DNA of 64,000 bases from Solobacterium sp. Lineage in GTDB: Bacteria; Bacillota_I; Bacilli_A; Erysipelotrichales; Erysipelotrichaceae. Position 1 is the stretch's first letter. Each line of letters starts with the position of its first letter. The DNA lies in the NCBI GenBank assembly GCA_017512725.1, contig JAFWEW010000013.1, forward strand, positions 62,001 to 126,000. The letters run 5' to 3'. The position numbers and the translations under genes are program-made. This document shows, in pieces, positions 3,919-50,343 of the stretch. A model generated the notes under the pieces. The model worked only from the letters and a program-made list of their open reading frames with translations. It made no database searches and had not been told where the DNA came from.

Positions 3919-4700
3919 GGTATATTCTCCTTTTTCTCATATGCCGGTTGGAATACCGGCCGGTTTTTACATACCGGTACTGCGGTTGTTTCGCAGCGAC
4001 GTCTTGATTCAAGTTCGGAATAGATCGTTCCGTATTTGGAAAAGGTCTGTCGATAAAGCTTCATTTCCGTAAGAATTTCGGTCAGCCAGAGCGGATACCG
4101 GTCTGAGACTTTGATCTCCATCAGGACATCTTCTTCATTTGTGATCATTCGTTCTTCTCCGGTTTTATGCAGAGACAGATGATCGAGCCGATAACAGATA
4201 TCCGTATCGAATGTGATCCGCAGATCTTTTTCTTCGATACCGGAGAATGCCTTTCGGTGATAGGCGATAAACATCTTCTGTGACAGATTTGCCCGTTTCA
4301 CGAGATAATCGATCTCTTTGGCGATCTGGCTGTGATCATCCAGCGGCATATGCTGATTCATATATGCACTGGCTTCCTGTTCACTTACCGCAATCCGACG
4401 TTTGACACCGGTGGTTTTGAACTTTTTCTTGATTTCCAGATAACACGGGGTTTTTTCATCCGGTTCTCCATAGGTTCTTAACCGAAGTTTTTCCTTGTAC
4501 TGAGGGTGGCCCAGACAGTTGATGATCAGCGCATTGTCCGGGGTATCGTAATAGATATTGTGCAGATCGTATTCCGGGTAAACATCCTTCTTCAGGTGCG
4601 GCATTGCTTTCTTCAGAAATAGCTCTGCCTGCCTGCGGTTCATCGGAAACTTATGTTCCACCCGCATCATGGTTGCTTCATACATCGCTTCGCTGTTCAT
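3900..4700 (-). CDS. VTC-domain polyphosphate polymerase-like protein
   Basis: A 266-residue cytoplasmic protein matching the VTC domain of the triphosphate tunnel metalloenzyme superfamily, which makes polyphosphate from NTPs in eukaryotic Vtc4. Visible signatures include an N-terminal RVEHKFPMNRRQ, basic strands KEKLRLRTYG and CYLEIKKKFKTTGVKRRI (alternating acidic and basic residues that line the tunnel), and VLMEIKVSDRYPLWL near the C-terminus. First gene of the VTC-DUF4956-DUF4353 cluster; the start has a good AGGAGG-like site upstream. Catalytic activity is inferred from the family. Confidence 0.85.
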   Translation of the reverse strand: MNSEAMYEATMMRVEHKFPMNRRQAELFLKKAMPHLKKDVYPEYDLHNIYYDTPDNALIINCLGHPQYKEKLRLRTYGEPDEKTPCYLEIKKKFKTTGVKRRIAVSEQEASAYMNQHMPLDDHSQIAKEIDYLVKRANLSQKMFIAYHRKAFSGIEEKDLRITFDTDICYRLDHLSLHKTGEERMITNEEDVLMEIKVSDRYPLWLTEILTEMKLYRQTFSKYGTIYSELESRRRCETTAVPVCKNRPVFQPAYEKKENIPCLTQS

Positions 4701-36432: not shown

Positions 36433-36631
36433 CATATATGGCGCAGGAACAGGGAAATAGAGTCATTCCGCATGGTTATGCGGTTGTAAGCGCTTTACCC
36501 ACTTTCTTTTACCCACACTATTGGCAAAATGTTCTAACGCAAAAAAAGTGCCATCCATCATCTGAAATGGTCAAAAATGACTATTTTATTAGTCTCTTTT
36601 TTTATTGTATTCGTAAAGGAGATTTACCATT

Positions 36632-37078
36632 ATGAACGATTTTTTATTAGACCTCGAAAGAGGCAGAACCGCAGAAGTTGCGGTAACGAACGCGTTCAGA
36701 AGACGCGGTTATGATGTGAAAGATATGACAGATAATCCTGTCTATTGAGCCAAAGACATAGACCTTCTGATCTACGACCACGACGGCACTATCTGACGCT
36801 TTGAAGTAAAGAATGACTATAATCTGTGAAAAACCGCAAATGTCTGTTTGGAACTAACAAGCAAAACAGGAAAAGACGGCTGATTCAAAACAACAGAGGC
36901 CTCTCATATTGCGTTCGTTGATCTTCACTTTAACATTGCATACATCGCTCGCACGCACGAACTCAGAGAGTATGTTTATAGTCACCCTTCTTTGAGACAC
37001 AAGCGATTAAATGGCTGCGACTGCGTACTTGTTAATACTGATGAATGCTTCATGCTATTTCAGCGAATTGAAGTATAG
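36632..37078 (+). CDS. PD-(D/E)XK nuclease-like protein with four in-frame UGA (Trp) codons
   Basis: Begins at ATG 36632 behind a strong AAAGGAG site (36615-36621) and reaches TAG 37076-37078 only if TGA at 36746, 36794, 36827 and 36881 is translated. There are no other stops or frameshifts. With TGA as Trp the 148 residues form a compact PD-(D/E)XK fold: helix Glu15, then AKDIDLLIYD with Asp44, and WRFEVKND with Glu58 and Lys60. The four UGA codons give YWAKD, TIWRF, NLWKT and DGWFK; GWF before EASHIAF matches a Trp position in related phage and plasmid nucleases. There is no UGG codon in the gene. The TAG is also part of the next gene's TAGGAGG site, so the two are coupled. Under the standard code the product would stop after 38 residues. 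Confidence 0.8.
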
Positions 37079-37091
37079 GAGGCAGATTATT

Positions 37092-37307
37092 ATGACAAAA
37101 GAAGAAAATATACTGCTTTCAAATAAAATCAGAGCGATTATAAGAGAAGCCCGAAAGAAAGGTTATCTGTTTAAATTTTTCTTCAGCAGAATTAACTACA
37201 ATTCTGTAGAGATAAATAATTTTATGAACCATAACAGAAAAATGACCGATTCAAATTTACTGACTTTGAAAGAATTCATCGAGAAAACTTTCCAAATGCA
37301 ACTATAG
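37092..37307 (+). CDS. Small helical protein, unknown
   Basis: 71 residues, ATG 37092, preceded by TAGGAGG that contains the stop of the UGA-containing nuclease gene, hence translational coupling. Basic and helical (KIRAIIREARKKGYLFKFFFSRINYNS); the segment NSVEINNFMNHNRKMTDSNLLTLKEFI could be a helix-turn-helix. No Trp; ends with TAG. Possibly a regulator or partner of the nuclease; that is a guess from coupling only. The gap 37308-37489 holds only a likely promoter. Confidence 0.65.
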   Translation: MTKEENILLSNKIRAIIREARKKGYLFKFFFSRINYNSVEINNFMNHNRKMTDSNLLTLKEFIEKTFQMQL

Positions 37308-37489: not shown

Positions 37490-37975
37490 ATGTCTAAAAA
37501 TTTTTATTCTACTGTTGCATTCTCTTTAGCTTTTTCATTTATGTTAGTGGGGTGTGGCACAGCATCAGAGTCAAGCGATAATTCCATTGAACTAACTAAA
37601 CAGAATTGTGAAGATTATCTTGAAATTGGTGGCAATATTGGAGTCGATGGATATAAAGTCAAGAGTGATTGGTATGGGGATTTCTATGATCATATCGTTG
37701 GAAAAGTAGTCGTCAATGGTGCCAATTCTAATTTCATTTACAATGATGTTGTAGTTACAGTTAATCTTTCTGGAACCTATGATTCCTATGATTGGCTCCT
37801 TAAAAAAATGAAGGATAATATTGATTTTTCTTATACAGTAACTGTTAAATGCAATACTGGCGGAAACGGATCTGAATCTTTTGCGGTACAAATAGCGGAT
37901 TATACTGCACAAGATGAACTTAATATTGGTTATCAAATAGTTGATGTGACTGGAACAGTAACCGTTGCAAAGTAA
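37490..37975 (+). CDS. Small lipoprotein, unknown function
   Basis: 161 residues. Lipoprotein signal ending in MLVGC (Cys22). The mature part is beta-rich with no recognised domain (KVVVNGANSNFIYNDVVVTVNLSG; a FxxL-type extracellular domain is possible). Two Trp codons are both UGG and the stop is TAA. Own promoter and terminator, so an independent unit within the recoded segment; might be a surface-exclusion or bacteriocin-protection lipoprotein, but nothing proves that. Confidence 0.7.
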   Translation: MSKNFYSTVAFSLAFSFMLVGCGTASESSDNSIELTKQNCEDYLEIGGNIGVDGYKVKSDWYGDFYDHIVGKVVVNGANSNFIYNDVVVTVNLSGTYDSYDWLLKKMKDNIDFSYTVTVKCNTGGNGSESFAVQIADYTAQDELNIGYQIVDVTGTVTVAK

Positions 37976-38182: not shown

Positions 38183-38557
38183 ATGGCTACAGTGGCAAAT
38201 CAAAAAATAATTATTATAGGAAAAGAAACTTGCGAAAACGCGTTATATACAAAGATAAATCTCGAAGCGCTTAATTCTGCTATGACAAATCCTCGCTTGA
38301 CTGCAACAGAATTAAAGTTTTGGCTATATCTTGGAAAGAACAAGCACGAATACAATCTCAAACTCAGTCCTTCGGACGCAGAAAATTGGGGCATCTCACG
38401 AGCATCTTTCTATCGAGCATTCAAAACACTTCTTAATGAAGGATACCTTGTGCCTGAACATGAAGGCAGCAATGTATTTCAATTTCATGAATATCCGCAG
38501 ACACAAAAAGAAAGAAAAAAGAAAAAATGGCTTCACAGCGATAATTATTCATTTTAA
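38183..38557 (+). CDS. Winged-helix protein, replication-initiator-like
   Basis: 124 residues from ATG 38183 (an AAAGGAG lies 15 bp upstream). The middle NPRLTATELKFWLYLGKN...WGISRASFYRAFKTLLNEGYLV (about 33-88) is a winged helix like those in plasmid/phage replication proteins and Rep-like regulators. The C-terminus is strongly basic (QKERKKKKWLH). All three Trp codons are UGG; stop TAA. Paired iteron-like repeats and a hairpin follow within 60-135 bp, which would suit an initiator and its origin. Confidence 0.65.
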   Translation: MATVANQKIIIIGKETCENALYTKINLEALNSAMTNPRLTATELKFWLYLGKNKHEYNLKLSPSDAENWGISRASFYRAFKTLLNEGYLVPEHEGSNVFQFHEYPQTQKERKKKKWLHSDNYSF

Positions 38558-38715: not shown

Positions 38716-38907
38716 ATGGAAAAACAAAATGCTAGATGACTTCACGAAGAAGGACTAATGCCTGATTGGGTATTCTATCAACTTTATGATGATAGATCTC
38801 CTCAGGAAAGATACGCAGAACAGAAAAGAAAGATAATGGATCAGATCCAAGAGAGAGAAAACTTCGAAGAACCTGAAACAGCAATATATATAGTAGGTAT
38901 GAAATAG
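38716..38907 (+). CDS. Small protein with one in-frame UGA (Trp) codon
   Basis: ATG 38716 stands behind AGAAGGAG at an ideal distance. TGA occurs at codon 8 (38737-38739), after which the frame stays open to TAG 38905. With UGA as Trp the 63 residues start MEKQNARWLHEEGLMPDWVF, a plausible helix; a second Trp is UGG. An internal ATG at 38758 could start a 49-residue product without UGA but lacks a ribosome site. Function unknown; the next gene begins 3 bp after the stop. Confidence 0.6.
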
Positions 38908-38909
38908 CT

Positions 38910-39059
38910 ATGCCACGCAGAACAAATAATACAGACAAAAAAAAGAAGAAAAAGAAGGATAAAGGTATCCTCGAACAAGAAATCTTCAGAATGATGCAAG
39001 CAATGGCAAAATCCGCTATTGAAGCAGCTTTAGACGAAATTTTAAAATTGTGAAAATAA
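38910..39059 (+). CDS. Very short basic protein; ends TGA-AAA-TAA
   Basis: ATG 38910 opens MPRRTNNTDKKKKKKK and then an amphipathic helix (QEIFRMMQAMAKSAIEAALDEILKL). TGA stands at 39051 and TAA at 39057. The standard code gives 47 residues; UGA=Trp gives 49, ending LWK. It follows the previous gene by 3 bp. Unknown function; the basic tail suggests nucleic-acid binding. Confidence 0.5.
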
Positions 39060-39085: not shown

Positions 39086-39162
39086 GTCAATCTTCACCTT
39101 AATCCTAAACTAAGAGTGTAAAGGAAAGGTGGAAGGAAGATTCCTTCCAAAAGGTGATTGAT

Positions 39163-39825
39163 ATGAAAGAACTCCACATTACTCCGTTTGAAAAAGAGAC
39201 AATCTATACTACAGAGAATATGATCAAAGCTTTGGATCATATTGAATCGTACATTCCTGGATTCGAAGATTTGATTAAAAAATCTCTCGATGATGCAATT
39301 TCTGTATTCATTGATGAAATGCTAGAAAATTTTGATGTAACCCTTGAATGTATGGGTATGAACGATTCTCAAACAAAGCAAATTTACGATATGGTTGATA
39401 CTAGAGATATTATCTGTTATATCGGTGATATCGGATCGGATTTCAATAAAGAACGTGTCACTAAAGCAATTAAAATGGTTTATAACGGCGAAAAACCTGT
39501 GTATTATTCCGAAGAAGCAAAGAATATTTTCACTCTCGAAGTATTGAAGAAATTATATGATGAAAATAACAATAACGAAGAAAGCTTTGAAGAATACTTT
39601 GGCGGTACAGAAGATGAAACTCGTATTGTTATGTTATTTTTCGAATACGATCGCTTCTTATCTGAACTTGAGCATGCAGGTGTTCCTGAAGGTAAAATGT
39701 TTGACTTGATGGATGAATACAATATCAAACCTGAAGAAGTGGCTTGTTATTATTACAATCTCGGTCGTAAAGAAACTAGAGACAAAGTTAAGAACGTTTA
39801 CAATCTTGCAATGAGTTTAGTATAA
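39163..39825 (+). CDS. Acidic protein of unknown function
   Basis: 220 residues from ATG 39163, preceded by AAAGGTG; a GTG at 39154 overlaps that site and is less likely. Very acidic and helical, with no Trp at all and stop TAA. No domain recognised; the C-terminal MFDLMDEYNIKPEEVACYYYNLGRKETRDKVKNVYNLA could be a small helix bundle. Acidic proteins of this kind in mobile elements are sometimes DNA mimics; that is speculation. Confidence 0.6.
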   Translation: MKELHITPFEKETIYTTENMIKALDHIESYIPGFEDLIKKSLDDAISVFIDEMLENFDVTLECMGMNDSQTKQIYDMVDTRDIICYIGDIGSDFNKERVTKAIKMVYNGEKPVYYSEEAKNIFTLEVLKKLYDENNNNEESFEEYFGGTEDETRIVMLFFEYDRFLSELEHAGVPEGKMFDLMDEYNIKPEEVACYYYNLGRKETRDKVKNVYNLAMSLV

Positions 39826-39894: not shown

Positions 39895-40032
39895 TACCCA
39901 TCCTACACCGCAGGCAGCCTGAACAAATCTGAACTCGGCAGGATCTGCGGACTATCGCGAAATACTATAAAGAAGTACATAAAAATTGTGGAGGCATCAT
40001 CTTAACGATGCCTCCCTTTTTATGACGATCGA
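39895..40032. repeat. 138-bp perfect direct repeat, copy A
   Basis: Identical to 41534-41671. It holds the 3' end of the serine recombinase reading frame without its 5' part, the stop, and a terminator hairpin GGAGGCATC/GATGCCTCC. The sequence from 40033 to 40327 is non-coding and includes the palindrome CGTAGAATTCTACG (40191-40204). Confidence 0.95.
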
Positions 40033-40327: not shown

Positions 40328-40552
40328 TTATTCATCATCAGGTACGTATTCCATTAGATCTCCTGGCTGACAATTGAGAAGTTTGCACAGTTTATCAATG
40401 GTCTGATCGGAAACACCCTTTGGTATGCCATTCCCTTTCTTCCCCTTCATTGCGGATAGTTGCGATTGCCCTAATATATTTTCTTTTCTTATTCGATAGG
40501 TTGTATAACCTCGTTCCTCAAGCAGATCAAAAGCCTTTTTATAACTAATCAT
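40328..40552 (-). CDS. XRE-family repressor
   Basis: 74 residues, a single HTH domain: SYKKAFDLLEERGYTTYRIRKENILGQSQLSAMKGKK then a recognition-helix region and the closing DKLCKLLNCQPGDLMEYVPD, typical of Cro/C1-type small regulators. Transcribed divergently from the 40739 gene; both promoters carry copies of its probable operator. Stop TAA. Confidence 0.88.
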   Translation of the reverse strand: MISYKKAFDLLEERGYTTYRIRKENILGQSQLSAMKGKKGNGIPKGVSDQTIDKLCKLLNCQPGDLMEYVPDDE

Positions 40553-40738: not shown

Positions 40739-41017
40739 ATGACAGACACAATGATTATGAAACAGATTGAAGAACTCAACGAATGGGAAAGCATTCTCGA
40801 AGAAGCAAAGATTCAGGCCAACGCGATCAAGGAGATCATCAAGGCTGAGATGGCTGAACGCGAGACTGAAGAACTCATCTGCGGACAGTGGATCGTTCGT
40901 AACACCTCGGTGCTTACTTCGAAGTTCGATACCCGTAGATTCAAGAGCGAGTACGAAGAAGTCTATAAAGCCTACCTGAAACAGGTTAGCAGCACACGCT
41001 TCAGCATCACCTGCTGA
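40739..41017 (+). CDS. Small phage/ICE-type helical protein (host-nuclease-inhibitor-like)
   Basis: 92 residues. Coiled-coil N-terminus (IEELNEWESILEEAKIQANAIKEIIKAEMAERETEELICG) and a short beta-rich tail (WIVRNTSVLTSKFDTRRFKSEYEEVYKAYLKQVSSTRFSI), a shape common in Firmicutes phages and mobile elements and usually just called hypothetical. First gene rightward of the XRE switch. Ends TGC TGA GGC GTG TAG, so reading UGA as Trp would add only three residues. Confidence 0.65.
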   Translation: MTDTMIMKQIEELNEWESILEEAKIQANAIKEIIKAEMAERETEELICGQWIVRNTSVLTSKFDTRRFKSEYEEVYKAYLKQVSSTRFSITC

Positions 41018-41041: not shown

Positions 41042-41644
41042 ATGACAGTGTTTGGATATAGTCGCTGCTCAACTTCTGAAGCAGCGGGAAAGCAAGACAT
41101 CAATCGTCAGATACGCGAACTGAAAGATGCGGGAGCAACAACAATATATTACGAGCACGAACACGGCGACGCTGCCGTAAAACCGCAACTTTCTCTCTTG
41201 CTCGATTCTGCTCAGGCAGGCGATGTGATTATCACAACAGAAATCTCTCGTTTAGCACGATCAACAGCACAACTTTGTCAGATAATAGACACAATAAAGG
41301 ATAAGAAACTATGCCTGCAGGTTCTTGGATCTATTACTGTTGATTGCAGAGGCGGAACCCTCGACCCTTTCTCTGCCGCCTTCTGTGAGATAGCAGCAGT
41401 TTTCTCAGAACTCGAACTACAATTAATTCGGGCAAGAGTTCGCAGCGGACTAGAGAATGCGCGCAGTAAAGGCCGAACTCTTGGAAGACCAAGTGTCACA
41501 AAAGAGAATATCCCGCAGATTTTCTATAGGTATTACCCATCCTACACCGCAGGCAGCCTGAACAAATCTGAACTCGGCAGGATCTGCGGACTATCGCGAA
41601 ATACTATAAAGAAGTACATAAAAATTGTGGAGGCATCATCTTAA
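41042..41644 (+). CDS. Serine recombinase (resolvase/invertase type)
   Basis: 200 residues. Catalytic Ser in FGYSRCST, YYEHEHGDAA, the arginine motif TTEISRLARST, the long E-helix with ELELQLIRARVRSGLENARSKGRTLGRPS and a C-terminal HTH (LNKSELGRICGLSRNTIKKYIKI). Small resolvase class, probably resolving plasmid multimers or mobilising the unit flanked by the 138-bp repeats, whose copy B is its own 3' end. AAGAGG serves as ribosome site; stop TAA; no Trp. Confidence 0.92.
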   Translation: MTVFGYSRCSTSEAAGKQDINRQIRELKDAGATTIYYEHEHGDAAVKPQLSLLLDSAQAGDVIITTEISRLARSTAQLCQIIDTIKDKKLCLQVLGSITVDCRGGTLDPFSAAFCEIAAVFSELELQLIRARVRSGLENARSKGRTLGRPSVTKENIPQIFYRYYPSYTAGSLNKSELGRICGLSRNTIKKYIKIVEASS

Positions 41645-41671
41645 CGATGCCTCCCTTTTTATGACGATCGA
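41534..41671. repeat. 138-bp perfect direct repeat, copy B
   Basis: Identical to 39895-40032, offset 1,639 bp. Covers the last 37 codons of the serine recombinase, its stop and the terminator stem GGAGGCATC/GATGCCTCC followed by T5. Confidence 0.95.
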
Positions 41672-41679
41672 GTGAGCTA

Positions 41680-43107
41680 TCATAACATCAGTTTTTCCAA
41701 ACAATCACATAAAGGTAATAGTTCGTCCAATTTTTCAACGATGCGTTGCTGTTCTTCAATGGGAGGGATTGGTACCATAATTGAGTTTAAGTTTTCCTGA
41801 TTGAGCTTCGGAACAGCTATTCCGTTTATCAATCCCATCAAAGGAAGATTGCAGGAGTCAAGGAACCCTTTGAGAAATCGTATTTCTATTTCAATTGGTT
41901 TTACAACGTGAACGTGATTATTTGCCCAAAACCTACCTTTGGCAATAAACGAATTATCCCTATCCACAAAGAAGTTGCCACCATCTTCTCCAATCATTAA
42001 GTATTCACCATCAAACAAATAGTCATCTACCTTGTCAATTGCACCGGTTGCACCATAATAAGGATAAACACCGCCACTGGATTTAACCCTAAGTTCCTTG
42101 GAAACCGGCCTTCTGTCTCCATCGCAATTTGAAACTAATGCTCCAAAGCGCATCCATTCCCAATTTATAGGAATATCAAACGGTATATCGCCTTCTCCAA
42201 ACGTGAGAGAACCCTTAGGTTTTCTAATTGTTTTATCTTTAATACCCCGCTCTCTAATGGTATTGATCCTCGCAATCAATTCGTGAACATCCCCATCACT
42301 CTCCAACTGCTCCGTCAACTTTCCCTGCATAGCCGCCTGCAGAATGGCATCCCTCATATTCCCAGGGAACGCCTTATGCAGTTCCGTAAGCTGCCTCTCA
42401 ATCTTCTCGTATTCATCGATCTTTGCCATCAATTCATCGACTCTGGCAACGATACGGGCTTGTTCTTCGATGGGAGGGAGCGGAATGAGAAAATGTTTAA
42501 GTTTATCGGCTTTGATTCCTTTAGCTGTTGTCCCGGTACAGTTATCAAGTAGCTGATGCTGGAATGCCGGTGAAAGAATGAAAAGCATGTATAATTTCGG
42601 AATTAATCGTCCTTTTACATATTCCTTAAATGTGATAACTCTTTGTCCACATGATGTTTTTTCAAGATCACAAAGAGCTGCCATTCCCATTGGGGCTTCG
42701 GTGGTAAATAAAAGATCGCCGTATTCTGTAATTCCTCTCGACTGTCGGTTTTGATACTCATCTTCTGAAATATATTCCTTGCGAGTATAATCCATATATC
42801 CTTTGCGGATATTTGATGCAGTTATTAAGAACACCCCTTCTTTAGTTTTGTTTGGTGTTTTACCTCTGTAATCGACGAAATCAAACAACTCATTCAGTTC
42901 TGTCATCACCCAATTCGAAGGTATTTCGAAATCCATAGAGCTATAGTCAAGTTCTGATTTACAAGGTGATATCCTACTATGTGCATCTTTTATTACCTTA
43001 TAATTCTCATTTGCATTGCTATCTGTATAAATTTGTTCTGTCAGTTTTCCTTGAATAGCGGCCTGTAGCACCGCTTCTCTCAATTCCTGTGCTAATACAT
43101 GAGGCAT
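41680..43107 (-). CDS. hsdS: Type I restriction specificity subunit HsdS (resident system)
   Basis: 475 residues with two target-recognition domains. The conserved repeats bracket them: LREAVLQAAIQGKLTEQ near the N-terminus and MRDAILQAAMQGKLTEQ in the centre, with IPLPPIEEQARIVARVDELMAKIDEYEK and VPIPPIEEQQRIVEKLDELLPLCDCLE after each domain. Determines the bipartite DNA site. It starts 1 bp after the truncated hsdM 3' part and looks intact, but its cognate HsdM is broken by the insertion. Confidence 0.92.
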   Translation of the reverse strand: MPHVLAQELREAVLQAAIQGKLTEQIYTDSNANENYKVIKDAHSRISPCKSELDYSSMDFEIPSNWVMTELNELFDFVDYRGKTPNKTKEGVFLITASNIRKGYMDYTRKEYISEDEYQNRQSRGITEYGDLLFTTEAPMGMAALCDLEKTSCGQRVITFKEYVKGRLIPKLYMLFILSPAFQHQLLDNCTGTTAKGIKADKLKHFLIPLPPIEEQARIVARVDELMAKIDEYEKIERQLTELHKAFPGNMRDAILQAAMQGKLTEQLESDGDVHELIARINTIRERGIKDKTIRKPKGSLTFGEGDIPFDIPINWEWMRFGALVSNCDGDRRPVSKELRVKSSGGVYPYYGATGAIDKVDDYLFDGEYLMIGEDGGNFFVDRDNSFIAKGRFWANNHVHVVKPIEIEIRFLKGFLDSCNLPLMGLINGIAVPKLNQENLNSIMVPIPPIEEQQRIVEKLDELLPLCDCLEKLML

Positions 43108-43108
43108 T

Positions 43109-44095
43109 TCACTTCACCCCCAGCAGATTCAAAATCTCCTGAAGCTTGGCATCCATTTCGGCATCCAATGTTTCCCGTTTCTCGATAAAGGTCTTAATTG
43201 TATCTTCCGGAGACAGAATGACCTTTTCTTCTACAGGGAATCCGCAGAGATCAAGATTGTAGCCATTGTCTGCGATCTCCTGAATGGTATATTTCTTCGA
43301 CTTCCATGTATCAGATTGGCTGTCGTCTTTCTTTTCATCCATGATTTCAACACGGTTATTCCACCACTCAATTGCAGGATTAAAGTGTTCCAACTTCATA
43401 GGCTTAGTTTTGCTGAAGTGTTTGTAGCCTTCCGGCATATCTAAGCGATAGAACCAAGTATCTTCCGTTGGCTTGTCATGATCAAAGAACAGAATATTTG
43501 TCGCAATATTTGTATAGGGCGAGAAAACACTTTGTGGCATGCGGATAATGGTGTGTAGATTGAACTCAGACATCAGCTTCTTCTTTATTGAAACCTTCGC
43601 ATTATCATTACCAAACAGGAAGCCGTCCGGAAGGATTACTGCAGCTCTTCCATTCTTCTTCAGACGATACATAATGACAGACATAAAGAGATCGGCTGTT
43701 TCGCTGCTTGCAAGATCCGCAGGGAAATGATTCTTGATCTCTGTCTTTTCCGATCCACCATACGGCGGATTCATGAGCACTACATCGAACTGATCATCAT
43801 CTGTATAGTCCAAAACATCTTTTGTCAGGGAATTGTCGTGATAAATCTTCGGCATGTCAATATCATGAAGCAACATATTCGTAACACACAGCATGTACGG
43901 AAACTGCTTCTTTTCGATACCATAAATTGAATTATTGACCTTTTCCTGATCATCAGCCGACTTTGCTTTGGGCTGCAGCTGCCCAAGCCAGCTGGTAAGG
44001 AATCCGCCGGTTCCGCACGCAAAATCTGCACACTGTTCACCAATCTGCGGATTGATCATCAGAGCCATAAATTCTGTGCATGCACGCGGCGTGAA
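43109..44095 (-). pseudogene. hsdM: hsdM 3' part (resident methyltransferase, split by transposon)
   Basis: The coding frame begins at 44095 with FTPRACTEFMALMINPQIG and continues through SAM motif FACGTGGF and catalytic NPPYGGSEKTEIKNHF to a normal C-terminus. The N-terminal 168 residues are missing here and sit at 60755-61258. An internal ATG (44068) could start a 319-residue fragment lacking the N-terminal helical domain, so methyltransferase activity is unlikely. Confidence 0.92.
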
Positions 44096-44115
44096 TACGT
44101 ATAATAATTTTGAAA

Positions 44116-44295
44116 GTGTTCATCTTTTTCAACACACCCATCAAAAACCGCATAAATAAAGGCTTTTGCGCACCTTGCCGGTTCTAATTGTAATATATTT
44201 TATGTTTTTTGGAAATTCACAGGCCGGAAAACGAAAACAATTATTTTACACACTTTGTGATAATATATAAATTTTGAAAATGTTCATATTTTTAT
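44116..44295. repeat. Left-end subterminal repeats
   Basis: TTTTGAAAGTGTTCATCTTTTT (about 44108-44129) and TTTTGAAAATGTTCATATTTTT (about 44272-44292) are near-identical. GTGTTCAACTTTT recurs at the right end (60690-60702). Likely recombinase binding sites. Confidence 0.6.
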
Positions 44296-44355
44296 TGTTT
44301 TGCCCTATAATGGAATTAGCTATCAGATCCATTATCTGTCTATTTAGGAGGCCTG

Positions 44356-45729
44356 ATGAAAGCCATCATTGAAAAGAAAAAGGGTAACGAGACTTTTTAC
44401 GAAGTCCAAGAATACATAGACGACAAACTTATAAATAAACGGACTGTGTTTTGTAAGGTTGCAAGCATCAACAAGAAAACAACCACATATTTCATTTTTT
44501 ACAATTCTGACATGGTCCCTATTTCTGACGCTTTTTCATTTGTTAATCAGTACCTGGCAGGTAAAGCCTTGAACACCAGAATAAAAGCATGTGAAGCATT
44601 AAAGGTTCTCTTTTGCTTCGAAGAAATAGTCGGAAAACAGATCAAAACCTTTAAAGCCTCAGACATTAACGATCTGAAGTATTTTCTGCATGGGTATTCC
44701 CCTTCTGGACAACTGCTGTCACTAGACTTAGCTACTATACGTTCAAATGACACGATCAATGGATACCTTTCTGTGTACCGGAATTATTTGGGTTACTTAG
44801 GAATTACCGATCACTCTTTATTTGATACGTCCGGGAGAATTACCTATCCCCGGGACGAAATTGGCAGTGACTTTGCTTACCGTGGAAAGAATTACAAAAA
44901 TAACGAGCGTTCGCCGAAGAAGGTAATTGAAGTTCCGAAATATATTTCTGTCGAAGAATTTGAAGCAATTCTCAAGTACATTCGTAAAAAATACTCCTTA
45001 AGAGAGGAAATAATCGTACGCCTCATGTATCAATGCGGGTTGAGAATTGGAGAAGTCCTTGGCTTAACGTTCGATGATGTTGTGATGGAAAAGTCCAATG
45101 ACGGAGTCTATTTCCCGATCGCCTATATACGGAATCGCGTATCTGACAAATATGGGCAGTTTGCAAAGACATGTATGAAAGTATTTAGTAGAAAACAATA
45201 CACAACAAGCGAATACAACACCTACGGATATGGGTATCAGTCAGTAGTCTTACCGAGAGACTTGTATGACCTTATAAACGAATACATTGAAACCACACAC
45301 GTACCTATCCGTGATAATCCCGTCACTAATAAAAGATATATTACTAAGTCGATTGCTGATCGAGTTCGCGGTTCGGAACTGTATGAAGACGACAACTATT
45401 ACATCTTTATTAATTCGATTGGAACACCATTTAGCATCGCGAGCTGGGATGATATTTTGCGGGATATCTTCAAGTCTGTCGGTATTCACGTTGATAAAAA
45501 CCGCCGCAAAAACAATTTAAATCACAGATTCCGGCATGGGTTTGCGATGTTTCAGGTTATGTATCTTGGTGTAAAAGAAGTTGAACTGGCCAAATTAATG
45601 AGACATTCAAACCTCTCGTCGGTACTGTGCTATTTCCAACCGACAATAACCGATCAGATCAAGTTGAAAACGGAATTTGTGGAAAGTTTATACGAAGTCG
45701 TCCCTGCACTTAGGAGGACACAACAATGA
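44356..45729 (+). CDS. Tyrosine recombinase, Tn554 TnpA-like
   Basis: 457 residues, start behind TAGGAGG. The C-terminal catalytic domain has Arg in YQCGLRIGEVLGLTFDD, NHRFRHGFAMFQ (H-x-x-R-H), the second His in LMRHSNLSS and the nucleophile in VLCYFQP, so the set is complete. First of four overlapping genes (ATGA with the next). In Tn554 the TnpA and TnpB recombinases act together at a fixed target. Stop is TGA. Confidence 0.88.
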   Translation: MKAIIEKKKGNETFYEVQEYIDDKLINKRTVFCKVASINKKTTTYFIFYNSDMVPISDAFSFVNQYLAGKALNTRIKACEALKVLFCFEEIVGKQIKTFKASDINDLKYFLHGYSPSGQLLSLDLATIRSNDTINGYLSVYRNYLGYLGITDHSLFDTSGRITYPRDEIGSDFAYRGKNYKNNERSPKKVIEVPKYISVEEFEAILKYIRKKYSLREEIIVRLMYQCGLRIGEVLGLTFDDVVMEKSNDGVYFPIAYIRNRVSDKYGQFAKTCMKVFSRKQYTTSEYNTYGYGYQSVVLPRDLYDLINEYIETTHVPIRDNPVTNKRYITKSIADRVRGSELYEDDNYYIFINSIGTPFSIASWDDILRDIFKSVGIHVDKNRRKNNLNHRFRHGFAMFQVMYLGVKEVELAKLMRHSNLSSVLCYFQPTITDQIKLKTEFVESLYEVVPALRRTQQ

Positions 45730-48416
45730 GCCAGTTAAGCCAGCATTTTCAAAACAGCCCTGTTTTAGCTGCATATACCGATACCGGAACAAGGGAATTC
45801 GTATGTGAATTTTTACAAGCCACTTATGAAAAAGAGTTCTTAACCAAAAAAGCATCCGTTCTACAGCATCTTTATAATTTGTCGGCGTTTACAAAGAACA
45901 TTACTATCAGCGAGATTACCACTGACAGCGTCGTTTCATTTTTGCTTGACGCGTCGCCGGGAAGAAGAAAAATCCTTATACAGTTCTTAATTTATATGTG
46001 CAAGAAAGGCTACTTCCATGAAGATAGTTCACGGAATATTCGCAGATTGCCGAAACTTGAACAGTTTTTTACAGAACATCCTTTCAAAGCCCGGCACGCA
46101 ATCTACGTTCTTACAAATCCTCATTTTGAAGAACTGATGGCATCAGCTTTATTCGCAAAACGAGAAGAGAAATACGGATACTCCGCGTTATTCTTCGAGT
46201 TGCCTTCAGATGAAATAGTGGCGGATGGTGTGTTCCCGGTACTCAAAAACTTTATTGAGTCTACAAAATGTTCAAGCACCGAAACACCGACGAAAATTAT
46301 TCGCGGTTTTGAAGGAATTAATTATGGTGCATGTAAGCTATTCAATAAGCCAGGGCCAGTTTGCATTACTCCATCAGACATAATGAATGTGTTCGATGAT
46401 GCAGAAAAAACGTACAGTCCTCCCACACCGGCTCAAATATTCACCGCCTCATTCAAAATGCTGCGTGTTTTAAAAGATAAAGGGCTTATTTCTGATCGGC
46501 ATATTTGTGCCGCAGTAGATATTTCCAGTCGCGTTTCTACGCTTACCAATAACATGATTCGCAATATATTCGCTTCAGATCACCCGGAGCAGTTTTCCGT
46601 TTTTACCTTTCAGGAAGGATCTCATGCAGGAGAAAATCATGTCGTTTATATTGACATAGCGAGTGCATCACTTAGAGAAGCGGCGACGGCATTTCTTTCG
46701 CAATATAACCACACTGACAGCGGAACAATACACTTCTTCTCGACGTTTGACACTTCATTGATGCCAATTAAGAACGCTTCTTTTTCCGATCTGTCATTCA
46801 ACACATTTTCCAGCCAAATTGAGTATTACAAAACTCATTCGTTAAAAAAACGCATCATTAGTGCTTGCACGGCCTTTTATCTGTACCTTCAGCAACATTA
46901 CGTTTCAGATGTGTTTGAAAAATCCGGTATTCCTGATTGTGTTCTGCATCGAAGCGACGTTGGTTACTTAATAGCAGATGGGTACTCTGTAGTTATTCAT
47001 AATCCGCTTGAACCGGTTCCTTCGAGTAATAAATGGCTTCTTTGCTATTTTCCAACCAAAAACAGTAGCGTAATTGAAACGCGGACATTGGATTTTACTA
47101 CTGTTCGTTGCCCTCTGTATAAAGACTGGTTAAAAAGCTATATATGGCACGAAGATGTAAAAGTTGAAACCAAAGCGCATCCGTTTTATAACATCCGGGA
47201 TTGCCTTAACTACCTATATGACCTTAAGACAGGCGCCGTTGCAAGTATCTTCGCGCGTCCTAGTTCTCAAATTGCAAGAATTACGTCAAATGATGCCGCC
47301 GCTTTGAGAAATCATATCATCACGATGTTTGATAACAACAGGACTATTCTGCGGTATATTTATGGCACTCGTTCCGTTCTCCAATACGTTTCCGATAATA
47401 AGCTTGGTCATGTTGACCCAGGGTTTTTCTACAATCTTTCGTATACTCTCAGCAATGATTATGACACCGGAACAGCAATACCCGATGCAGAACTGATCCT
47501 GCTTACGGATGCTTTCAAAAAGCGCGCATTAACTGATAACATCGCTGCAATATGCTATTCAGTTGTATATATTGCATTGGAAACAGAATTACGGCCTATT
47601 TCAATTTACGGGTTGAAAACCGACTGTGTTTTGGAAACCGCCAAGAAGGGCGAACATGTTATTGCTGTTGAGGAAAAGACATCCGGTGGCGAAATCGTTC
47701 ATCATCCCATCACAAAGTACTGTGTGAAGGAAATTGAAGAAGTCCGCCGGAGAACCGAAGACTATCGTAATCAGTGTGTTGATGAGATGTTACATGGGAC
47801 GTTGTTTATTATTCCTCATAACAAAATCGGGACTTTTAAGCAGATTGACGGCGACACAGTAAACAAATACATAAAAAAATGCTGCTCCGATGCCGGCATA
47901 GCCAATTACACAATGCGTGATGTTCGCAAGACTCATATGACAAACGCCTTACGATACAAGATTAAGAATTCTCTCTCTGACCTGCAGCAAAACATACTTT
48001 CTGGGCATAAGAGTCCGGTTACAGACGATATTCATTACGCTCGACTTGATATTCGGGAGATGCTTGAGTCTGTTCATGGCATTGTTATCGGAAAAGAAGT
48101 CATTAAAGGCTCTGTCGGAAGCGAATCTGACGTTTCCATAATGACACCTGATAATTCTGTATCAAATGGTTGTGGTTACTGCAAAAGCAAAGATTGTAAT
48201 GAGCTTTCCTACATTGATTGCTTATTATGCAAGGATTTCGTTACTTTTCCGGATCGACTCCCCTTTTTCAAGGAGCGAATTGCTACTATCAATGAACAAA
48301 TACAGAAAGCTTCCGTTCCGCATGACAAGGAAGATCTTGCCAATATTAAGAAGCTGCTTGTTATGTATGAAGAACAAATTCTCATTCGTATGAAGGAGGA
48401 TAGCACCGATGAGTGA
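45726..48416 (+). CDS. Large tyrosine recombinase, second of trio
   Basis: 896 residues, unusually long. The catalytic domain is C-terminal: Arg in ALETELRPISIYGLKTD, YTMRDVRKTHMTNALRY (box II with Arg in place of the usual first His), LSGHKSPVTDDIHYARLD with His and the candidate Tyr. A Cys-rich segment follows (CGYCKSKDCNELSYIDCLLCKDFV), resembling a zinc-binding element. The long N-terminal half has no motif I recognise. Overlaps the first gene by 4 bp and the next by 8. Confidence 0.82.
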   Translation: MSQLSQHFQNSPVLAAYTDTGTREFVCEFLQATYEKEFLTKKASVLQHLYNLSAFTKNITISEITTDSVVSFLLDASPGRRKILIQFLIYMCKKGYFHEDSSRNIRRLPKLEQFFTEHPFKARHAIYVLTNPHFEELMASALFAKREEKYGYSALFFELPSDEIVADGVFPVLKNFIESTKCSSTETPTKIIRGFEGINYGACKLFNKPGPVCITPSDIMNVFDDAEKTYSPPTPAQIFTASFKMLRVLKDKGLISDRHICAAVDISSRVSTLTNNMIRNIFASDHPEQFSVFTFQEGSHAGENHVVYIDIASASLREAATAFLSQYNHTDSGTIHFFSTFDTSLMPIKNASFSDLSFNTFSSQIEYYKTHSLKKRIISACTAFYLYLQQHYVSDVFEKSGIPDCVLHRSDVGYLIADGYSVVIHNPLEPVPSSNKWLLCYFPTKNSSVIETRTLDFTTVRCPLYKDWLKSYIWHEDVKVETKAHPFYNIRDCLNYLYDLKTGAVASIFARPSSQIARITSNDAAALRNHIITMFDNNRTILRYIYGTRSVLQYVSDNKLGHVDPGFFYNLSYTLSNDYDTGTAIPDAELILLTDAFKKRALTDNIAAICYSVVYIALETELRPISIYGLKTDCVLETAKKGEHVIAVEEKTSGGEIVHHPITKYCVKEIEEVRRRTEDYRNQCVDEMLHGTLFIIPHNKIGTFKQIDGDTVNKYIKKCCSDAGIANYTMRDVRKTHMTNALRYKIKNSLSDLQQNILSGHKSPVTDDIHYARLDIREMLESVHGIVIGKEVIKGSVGSESDVSIMTPDNSVSNGCGYCKSKDCNELSYIDCLLCKDFVTFPDRLPFFKERIATINEQIQKASVPHDKEDLANIKKLLVMYEEQILIRMKEDSTDE

Positions 48417-50343
48417 CAATGTTATTACACTTACAGAACTGAATGATCAGTATAATTTACCTTCAAACATTTCTATCGACTCCGACAAATTCGGCGGTTA
48501 CTTGGAGAACATAAAGCATCTACAGAGGCTTCCGTTTTCTAAGGCGGACATTTGTTATGGTGATGATCTTTGGGACTTTTCAGGTTATTCACAGCTTAAT
48601 ATTGCTAAGAGCGAACTCAGGTTCAACTTCTCAAATGTGCCAGAAGCATTCCGCGATGATTTGAAGAACTATGTGCTTGCGAAAATTCTTGAAAATAAAT
48701 TGAAAATACAGAGCATTCACAGTGCGATGCTTTCTATTTCTCAGTTTTTTCAGTATGCCGAGAGCCGACATGTTTATGCGGTTGAAGATATCACAAAGGG
48801 GATTGTGAAAGACTATTTACAATTATGCAGGAACACTAAATCCCTCTCCGGTGTTCGCATTGCCAAAACCAATATTAAGTCGTTTTATATTCAGTACGAC
48901 ATTAACATTAAAGACATTACTACTCCTGGATTGATGGATCTGTTTGAATACGATGATCATCGTGCGTTTAAGGCTCTCAAAGAACAGAACCGCACTAAAA
49001 ACATCCCGGATGGGTATTTCAATAGGTTAAAAACCGCCATTTATACCGTTATAAATGATGATAATGTTCCGGTTCATATACGCGCTGCCGCTTGCATATA
49101 TGTCATTCTAATGCAAACAGGTTTACGGATCGGCGAAATCCTCGGCTTATATTCAGATTCGCTGAAAACAACAACAATATTCACAGGCGAGGAAGCTTAT
49201 TATATCGAATATCGTACTTGGAAGCGGGAGCACATGAACAATCTGGCGACTATCGCAAAAACTGCCGCGAATAAGGAGGCAAAAGATGCATTTGATCGTC
49301 TTGTCGAGCTTCATAAAGATAAAAGAGAAGCATTAAACCTGCCTTACTTATATATGGGCAGTGATCGTTATCCTACTGAAGACAAATTCCCTTTATGCAG
49401 TGAAGACTTCAAGGAAGACGCCTTCGATCTGATGATCTATCTCCATGAAAATGGTCTTTTGGAAACAGTAGACCTTTCGGCAGATACATATCCCGATATC
49501 CATGTTTTCAAAGTGCGTCATCGCTATATCAAGGGCGCAAATGGCACTAAGACGCCAATTATCACATTGTCCTTTCCTGATACCCAGCAATTCCGGTTTC
49601 ACTGTTGCTCAGAGTTATATAACAAAGGAGTTCCGCTTGAGTATATCAAACGATTTATGTCTCATCTAACAACAGAGATGGTGAGGTATCACATCTACCC
49701 GGAAAAGAGCCCGCAAGAAAACATGGAGTTCTCCGTTTCCGTATTAAAAGGGATTATTACCGGAGAAACACCCATTCTTGGTGGTGATAAAGGATTAACA
49801 AAGTCTATTTTGAAATTCATAGAGTCAAATAATCTATCTGTCGAGAAAGACTTGGAGACTATCAGCAAAAACCTTGCCCTGAAAATACCAATCCGTCAAA
49901 AGGCGGGTGGAGTTTGCATAAAATCATCGCAATTACGTGACTGCCGTGTGGATGGCCAAACCAATGAGTTTTACTGCGCTTATGGTGTATGCCCGAACAT
50001 CGTTCACTTTTACTACATGGCCGACATTACATATCGCCATTGTAAAGAATTGGCCGAAGTCATTGGGGTGAATAGAATTCGGGAGCAACAATATTACAAT
50101 TCGCAAGGCAAAAACATGTCTAAAGCAGACCGGAACATTTATCCGAAACAGATTCAAAAGAATATAAATATGCTTTATTCGTTAGCTACTAAAAAATTGG
50201 ATCCAGAGATTACGGATCTTAAAAGGGCTCTACGGGAGCAGGGATTGGAAAAAGTATTCTACGCACATCCGGAGCTTAAAGATATTGTAGAAAACCTGGA
50301 CACTATCGAAGAGGAATTAAAGGTATGGAAAACATTGAGATAA
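48409..50343 (+). CDS. Tyrosine recombinase, Tn554 TnpB-like
   Basis: 644 residues, close to the size of Tn554 TnpB. Catalytic Arg in LMQTGLRIGEILGLYSD, FRFHCCSELYNKGVPLEYIKRFMSH and nucleophile Tyr in EMVRYHIYPEK; the first box-II His is Gln. A C-terminal Cys-containing segment (GGVCIKSSQLRDCRVDGQTNEFYCAYGVCP) follows, as in TnpB proteins. Third of the overlapping set. Confidence 0.85.
   Translation: MSDNVITLTELNDQYNLPSNISIDSDKFGGYLENIKHLQRLPFSKADICYGDDLWDFSGYSQLNIAKSELRFNFSNVPEAFRDDLKNYVLAKILENKLKIQSIHSAMLSISQFFQYAESRHVYAVEDITKGIVKDYLQLCRNTKSLSGVRIAKTNIKSFYIQYDINIKDITTPGLMDLFEYDDHRAFKALKEQNRTKNIPDGYFNRLKTAIYTVINDDNVPVHIRAAACIYVILMQTGLRIGEILGLYSDSLKTTTIFTGEEAYYIEYRTWKREHMNNLATIAKTAANKEAKDAFDRLVELHKDKREALNLPYLYMGSDRYPTEDKFPLCSEDFKEDAFDLMIYLHENGLLETVDLSADTYPDIHVFKVRHRYIKGANGTKTPIITLSFPDTQQFRFHCCSELYNKGVPLEYIKRFMSHLTTEMVRYHIYPEKSPQENMEFSVSVLKGIITGETPILGGDKGLTKSILKFIESNNLSVEKDLETISKNLALKIPIRQKAGGVCIKSSQLRDCRVDGQTNEFYCAYGVCPNIVHFYYMADITYRHCKELAEVIGVNRIREQQYYNSQGKNMSKADRNIYPKQIQKNINMLYSLATKKLDPEITDLKRALREQGLEKVFYAHPELKDIVENLDTIEEELKVWKTLR

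Follow-up and report, generated by a model that had tools for sequence, protein, structure and literature searches.

How a bacterium could maintain a nuclease gene that is interrupted by four stop codons is the question raised by one locus of Solobacterium sp. The locus lies in a 64,000-nucleotide stretch (the window) on contig C36 of a draft genome of 2.72 Mb that is 97% complete and divided into 45 contigs. The gene runs from ATG to TAG in a single frame with no frameshift and no internal TAA or TAG, and its internal stops are exactly four, all TGA (positions 36746, 36794, 36827, and 36881), as an initial annotation had claimed and as we re-read from the sequence. The gene and its ribosome site are the following:

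36632..37078, plus strand: PD-(D/E)XK nuclease gene; four TGA (read as Trp), no TGG, stop codon TAG
36615..36621, plus strand: Shine-Dalgarno-like AAAGGAG, 10 nucleotides upstream of the nuclease ATG

The TAG of the nuclease gene overlaps the Shine-Dalgarno sequence of the next gene (37092 to 37307), and thus both the ribosome site and the coupled downstream gene of that annotation are present. We think it probable, if far from certain, that the nuclease belongs to an integrative element of about 5 kb in which an operon written for UGA as tryptophan is gated by the suppressor tRNA-Trp(UCA) of an incoming phage that uses genetic code 4.

Whether the protein behind the stops is maintained can be judged from its homologs. 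A search of 60 relatives and then of 273 genomes of the family gave two close homologs, both in uncultured Erysipelotrichaceae of the same genus (genomes G014 and G099), whose identity to the window protein is 62% and 61% and which carry five and three in-frame TGA codons, respectively. A GGAG precedes both genes at similar spacing. Over the three copies, tryptophan codons are TGA four, five, and three times and TGG never (12:0); the G014 and G099 genes have zero internal TAA or TAG, a recurrence that chance would not come near to producing, and all three copies terminate in TAG. All three share TGA at two columns, and at exactly these two a phage homolog of roughly 40% identity (IMG/VR contig L083) has TGG, such that the proposed alignment to homologs did find tryptophan where TGA is shared. 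At the remaining TGA columns, the residues in relatives are mainly Tyr, Phe, or His but also Leu and Ser. The proportion of nonsynonymous differences (pN) among the copies is 0.22 to 0.27 versus a synonymous proportion (pS) of 0.68 to 0.88 for the whole gene, and 0.26 to 0.29 versus 0.69 to 0.93 downstream of the last TGA. As pN/pS is low even behind the last TGA, we conclude that the protein beyond three to five stops is kept by purifying selection.

There also seems to be a preference for TGA above TGG, even on the assumption that both are read as tryptophan. Of 66 Lys, Glu, and Gln codons in the nuclease genes, 42 end in A, and at that rate the probability that 12 of 12 tryptophan codons would be TGA is about 0.005, a figure for which independence of codons is only roughly true. 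Readthrough that depends on a selenocysteine insertion sequence (SECIS)-like element or on local context was set aside, as the contexts of the 12 TGA codons differ. Beyond the genus, a single-sequence search of IMG/VR with the nuclease gave no match, an alignment-based search gave L083 and a weak match, L084, both with ordinary codons, and searches of the order, class, and phylum gave no further stop-bearing homolog, all matches in other lineages being short and weak. The names of relatives' records can be read as pointing to a rumen origin of the carriers.

When UGA is read as tryptophan, the product is confidently predicted to be a PD-(D/E)XK nuclease by its restriction-endonuclease-like fold and its motif, in agreement with the full nuclease that had been claimed for the decoded frame. 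The AlphaFold2 model has a mean predicted local distance difference test score of 87.5 and a predicted template modeling score of 0.82. Its closest solved fold is I-Ssp6803I (Z 12.0; root mean square deviation, 2.9; 122 aligned residues), followed by the SPARDA nuclease (Z 10.7) and Hjc (Z 10.3). The claimed catalytic residues Asp44, Glu58, and Lys60 (D, ExK) are invariant across six homologs. The fold and the D, ExK motif are therefore those of I-Ssp6803I and Hjc-like nucleases, from which the protein differs in sequence, with an identity of only about 12 to 14%. A sequence search of the PDB returned mainly designed TIM barrels, which were rejected, and neither the nuclease nor two further proteins of the element matched a PADLOC 2.0.0 model. 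Separately, a 90-amino-acid phage "putative endonuclease" (BFVD A0A8S5U0K7; Siphoviridae sp. ctNEy24) is 38% identical to the nuclease in a fold alignment, and it could be truncated by an in-frame stop.

How the nuclease could be translated is less simple, because its host uses the standard code. TGA terminates 161 of 323 long open reading frames (ORFs), which makes it the commonest stop, as had been claimed, and TGG occurs 1297 times within the same ORFs. Release factor 2 (RF2) is intact in all three carrier genomes. There are 58 host tRNAs above the cutoff, all accounted for by ARAGORN and two read by eye; the sole tRNA-Trp has the anticodon CCA, and the search for a UCA anticodon that had been recommended found none among the 58. 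Moreover, no tRNA was found in the window, and a DNA search of 70 genomes of the genus revealed no second Trp-like tRNA with a UCA anticodon; extra Trp-like matches (genomes G082, G025, and G102) were CCA or Gly. An organism that reads UGA as tryptophan genome-wide was rejected, as UGA is the main stop, RF2 is present, and the tRNA-Trp anticodon is CCA, not UCA. A selenoprotein was likewise rejected, since tRNA-Sec (RF01852) had no match over the cutoff in the three carrier genomes and the homologous residue is tryptophan. Finally, several hundred kilobases of this genome were scanned with codon scoring for frames that are open only if TGA means tryptophan; the hits, where inspected, had the appearance of antisense shadows or same-frame neighbors, and none of ten such frames tested had a Pfam match across a TGA. 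Given a host with TGA as a stop, an intact RF2, and only tRNA-Trp(CCA), the nuclease gene should not be expressed at full length without UGA suppression. Of the three readings that the initial annotation had offered, the best fit is a nuclease that stays silent in the absence of UGA suppression. The lack of any tRNA in the element and of a UCA anticodon in the genome weakens an element-encoded recoding system. DNA from a UGA-as-tryptophan replicon, taken as a recent import, is weakened by the presence in a single genus of three copies that are syntenic yet diverged.

The nuclease does not stand alone. The genes and repeats that follow it in the window are listed here:

37092..37307, plus strand: 71-amino-acid basic protein, directly 3' of the nuclease gene and its neighbor in each of the three elements; the G014 copy has one in-frame TGA
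37490..37975, plus strand: lipoprotein-like gene, only in the window's copy of the element
38183..38557, plus strand: 124-amino-acid protein, in all three elements and phage contig L083; TGG in the window copy
38716..38907, plus strand: 63-amino-acid ORF interrupted in frame by a single TGA (38737); a TGA is shared by the homologs in G014 and G099 (62 to 63 amino acids)
38910..39059, plus strand: short Lys-rich ORF; each of the three elements has TGA, one codon, and then TAA, the TGA being ambiguous between stop and Trp
39154..39825, plus strand: 223-amino-acid cargo gene, standard code
39895..40032, plus strand: left direct repeat, 138 nucleotides, 100% identical to the right copy; holds the 3' end of the recombinase gene
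40328..40552, minus strand: Cro/C1-type helix-turn-helix regulator (HTH_26; Pfam E value, 3e-13)
40739..41017, plus strand: 92-amino-acid phage-type protein; in each of the three elements Trp is encoded by TGG and the gene's true stop is TGA
41042..41644, plus strand: serine recombinase (Resolvase N-terminal domain; Pfam E value, 5e-27), standard code
41534..41671, plus strand: right direct repeat, 138 nucleotides, 100% identical to the left copy and likewise with the recombinase 3' end

Gene order is kept in the three genomes: nuclease, 71-amino-acid protein, 124-amino-acid protein, two small ORFs, Cro/C1 regulator, 92-amino-acid protein, and serine recombinase. The 124-amino-acid gene of G099 has one TGA at an aligned tryptophan column. 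The slot of the 223-amino-acid gene holds a different, 194-amino-acid gene in G099 (contig L077, 3991 to 4578), and thus the position before the recombinase module is like a site for variable cargo. Direct repeats flank the module of regulator and recombinase in each element (138 nucleotides in the window, 100 in G014, and 94 in G099), which suggests that the module may be excisable; they are 100% identical within each element and different between elements, a pattern that suggests recent movement or homogenization. The module is without internal TGA. TGA:TGG counts are 12:0 in the nuclease, 8:8 in the other operon genes, where some TGA may be stops, and 0:5 in the module, and the nuclease differs from the module by Fisher's test (P = 1.6e-4). 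Adjoining the element, positions 41680 to 50343 of the window hold genes that by their translations are type I restriction genes (HsdS and HsdM-like) and a run of three recombinase-like genes, an arrangement that resembles a defense or integration hot spot.

How the operon might be switched on follows from two considerations. Serial UGA codons would make weak readthrough useless and yet the protein is under selection, and therefore there should be episodes of strong UGA suppression. Phages are their obvious source: of 73 phages with a predicted table 4 code, 11 were reported to have Sup-TCA tRNAs (PMC11210395), and while a strict pattern for a phage Trp-UCA tRNA had zero matches, a looser one gave IMG/VR phage contigs L170, L180, L195, and L214, each with a UCA-anticodon tRNA that has a Trp-like acceptor stem. 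Two of these, L170 and L180, also have a 456-amino-acid frame with two in-frame TGA codons and no TGG. These phage tRNAs lead us to read the operon as gated by a recoded phage. The operon would be written for UGA as tryptophan and the regulator and recombinase in the standard code of the host. In the uninfected cell, RF2 would terminate translation at the first UGA and no nuclease would be made; once a code 4 phage entered and expressed its tRNA-Trp(UCA), the operon would become translatable and the nuclease would be produced. The nuclease might then act on DNA either for the element, as a satellite-like use of the helper's late code, or against the phage, as defense. The exclusive use of TGA in the nuclease favors the defense role.

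Parallels exist in part. In stop-recoded phages (code 4, UGA as Trp; code 15, UAG as Gln), in-frame stops likewise fall at conserved residue columns of selected genes, the host being of standard code, while the remaining genes of the replicon keep the standard code, and like their recoded genes, the nuclease has TGA at tryptophan columns and never as its own stop. Here, however, a bacterial chromosome or small plasmids carry the recoded genes, no phage structural genes are recognized with them, and no suppressor tRNA of its own was found in the element. No phage structural-protein match was obtained for the element proteins tested, with phage families covered in part. Phage satellites (PICI, PLE, and the like) are similar as small elements with a regulator (here HTH_26), a recombinase (Resolvase), and variable cargo, and related pRGI plasmids share with them a terminase small subunit (TerS). 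The Erysipelotrichaceae copies differ from satellites in that no TerS-like gene, the packaging gene tested, was found, and helper dependence would run through the genetic code, of which we found no description. A synthetic leak dampener also uses a suppressor tRNA in trans to tighten gene control but is engineered, unlike the natural element here (PMC7969014). Literature searches gave no satellite or defense gene gated by stop-codon recoding, which is weak evidence, as preprints and many journals lay outside them.

A similar arrangement may exist for UAG. Plasmid pRGI00117 (7.2 kb), one of the pRGI plasmids that we take to be of rat-gut origin, encodes a distant nuclease homolog with four in-frame TAG codons and no internal TGA or TAA, of which just the final portion is annotated in the record. 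Beside it, in an operon region at 3935 to 5632 of contig L145, a terminase-small-subunit gene (phrog_2538; E value, 7e-29) has two in-frame TAG codons, and the TAG pattern is repeated in the terminase operon of the related plasmid pRGI00100 (contig L147, 4424 to 5308). Summed over both plasmids, the ratio of TAG to CAA or CAG is 14:28 in the operon and 0:50 in replication-type genes (Fisher's test, P = 4e-6). Gut phages with code 15 read UAG as Gln, and the same reading is probably appropriate in the plasmids. The two plasmids are candidate code 15 phage satellites, and by analogy the terminase parallel favors a satellite role for the Solobacterium element.

Several explanations do without a phage. 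The host might itself read through UGA: its tRNA-Trp (G000:C36:134674-134745; L068 19726-19799) has C9, A24, and, by manual folding, an unpaired 27-43 (U-C mismatch) that leaves a 4-bp anticodon stem, features linked to UGA misreading (PMC13092985). Stress or a shortage of RF2 might increase the misreading, with traces of nuclease sufficing. A tRNA-Trp(CCA) with a 4-bp anticodon stem reads UGA in Escherichia coli, and A9C and G24A are discussed in the same report (PMC13092985). The host tRNA shares the unpaired 27-43 with that tRNA but differs from it in adding C9 and A24, in its U-C mismatch, and in a host that keeps UGA as the main stop with RF2 intact. Moreover, this tRNA-Trp is near identical genus-wide and not specific to carriers, losses would multiply over three to five serial UGAs, TGG is wholly avoided, and a G43C-type mismatch was suggested by simulation to be poor at readthrough (PMC13092985). 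We consider host readthrough unlikely. A suppressor of the bacterium or of a co-resident plasmid might also have been overlooked in a draft of 45 contigs, but this is highly unlikely, as the 58 tRNAs and the 70 genomes of the genus revealed no such tRNA and host genes terminate in TGA in all three genomes.

The gene might instead be nonfunctional. Recent import from a recoded phage or Mycoplasma-like replicon, followed by death in the present host, would explain why tryptophan usage is all TGA, as is typical of code 4 genes, and why a phage has a homolog; it is decidedly unlikely, as synonymous divergence among the three copies is saturated, gene order and standard-code neighbors are the same, and purifying selection still acts on them. 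A pseudogene with chance TGA codons would account for a frame broken by stops, but decay is extremely unlikely, and the initial annotation rightly doubted it: there are 12 TGA and no TAA, TAG, or frameshift, homologous columns have tryptophan, and the selection analysis that could have revealed decay gave a low pN/pS behind the last TGA. Gating by a recoded phage has its own difficulties. The known copies number just three, all from metagenome-assembled genomes, TGA and TGG are mixed in the neighboring operon genes, the host tRNA-Trp carries the features just described, and the pRGI00117 homolog is only about 29 to 31% identical. There is no TerS-like gene in or near the three elements, the one terminase family tested gave no prophage whose terminase has in-frame TGA, and no helper or target phage was identified for the genus; suppression by a phage is therefore inferred. 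The physiological target of the nuclease is inferred as well. By contrast, homology shows that UGA stands for tryptophan, and the purifying selection behind the stops, the standard code of the host, and the fold and motif of a nuclease are likewise established.

Stop codon recoding in phages has, to our knowledge, no agreed purpose. Here, we describe an element in which a host nuclease with a stop codon at each tryptophan as its lock might, as a tentative possibility, be a natural sensor of a change in the genetic code that is unlocked only by a recoded phage's UGA suppression and attacks that phage, and related plasmids may do likewise for UAG. Standard gene calling breaks or misses the stop-bearing genes of such elements. 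If gating by recoded phages is true, code switching by a phage would be visible to third parties and could be exploited by them, either as a helper signal for satellites or as a trigger for defense.
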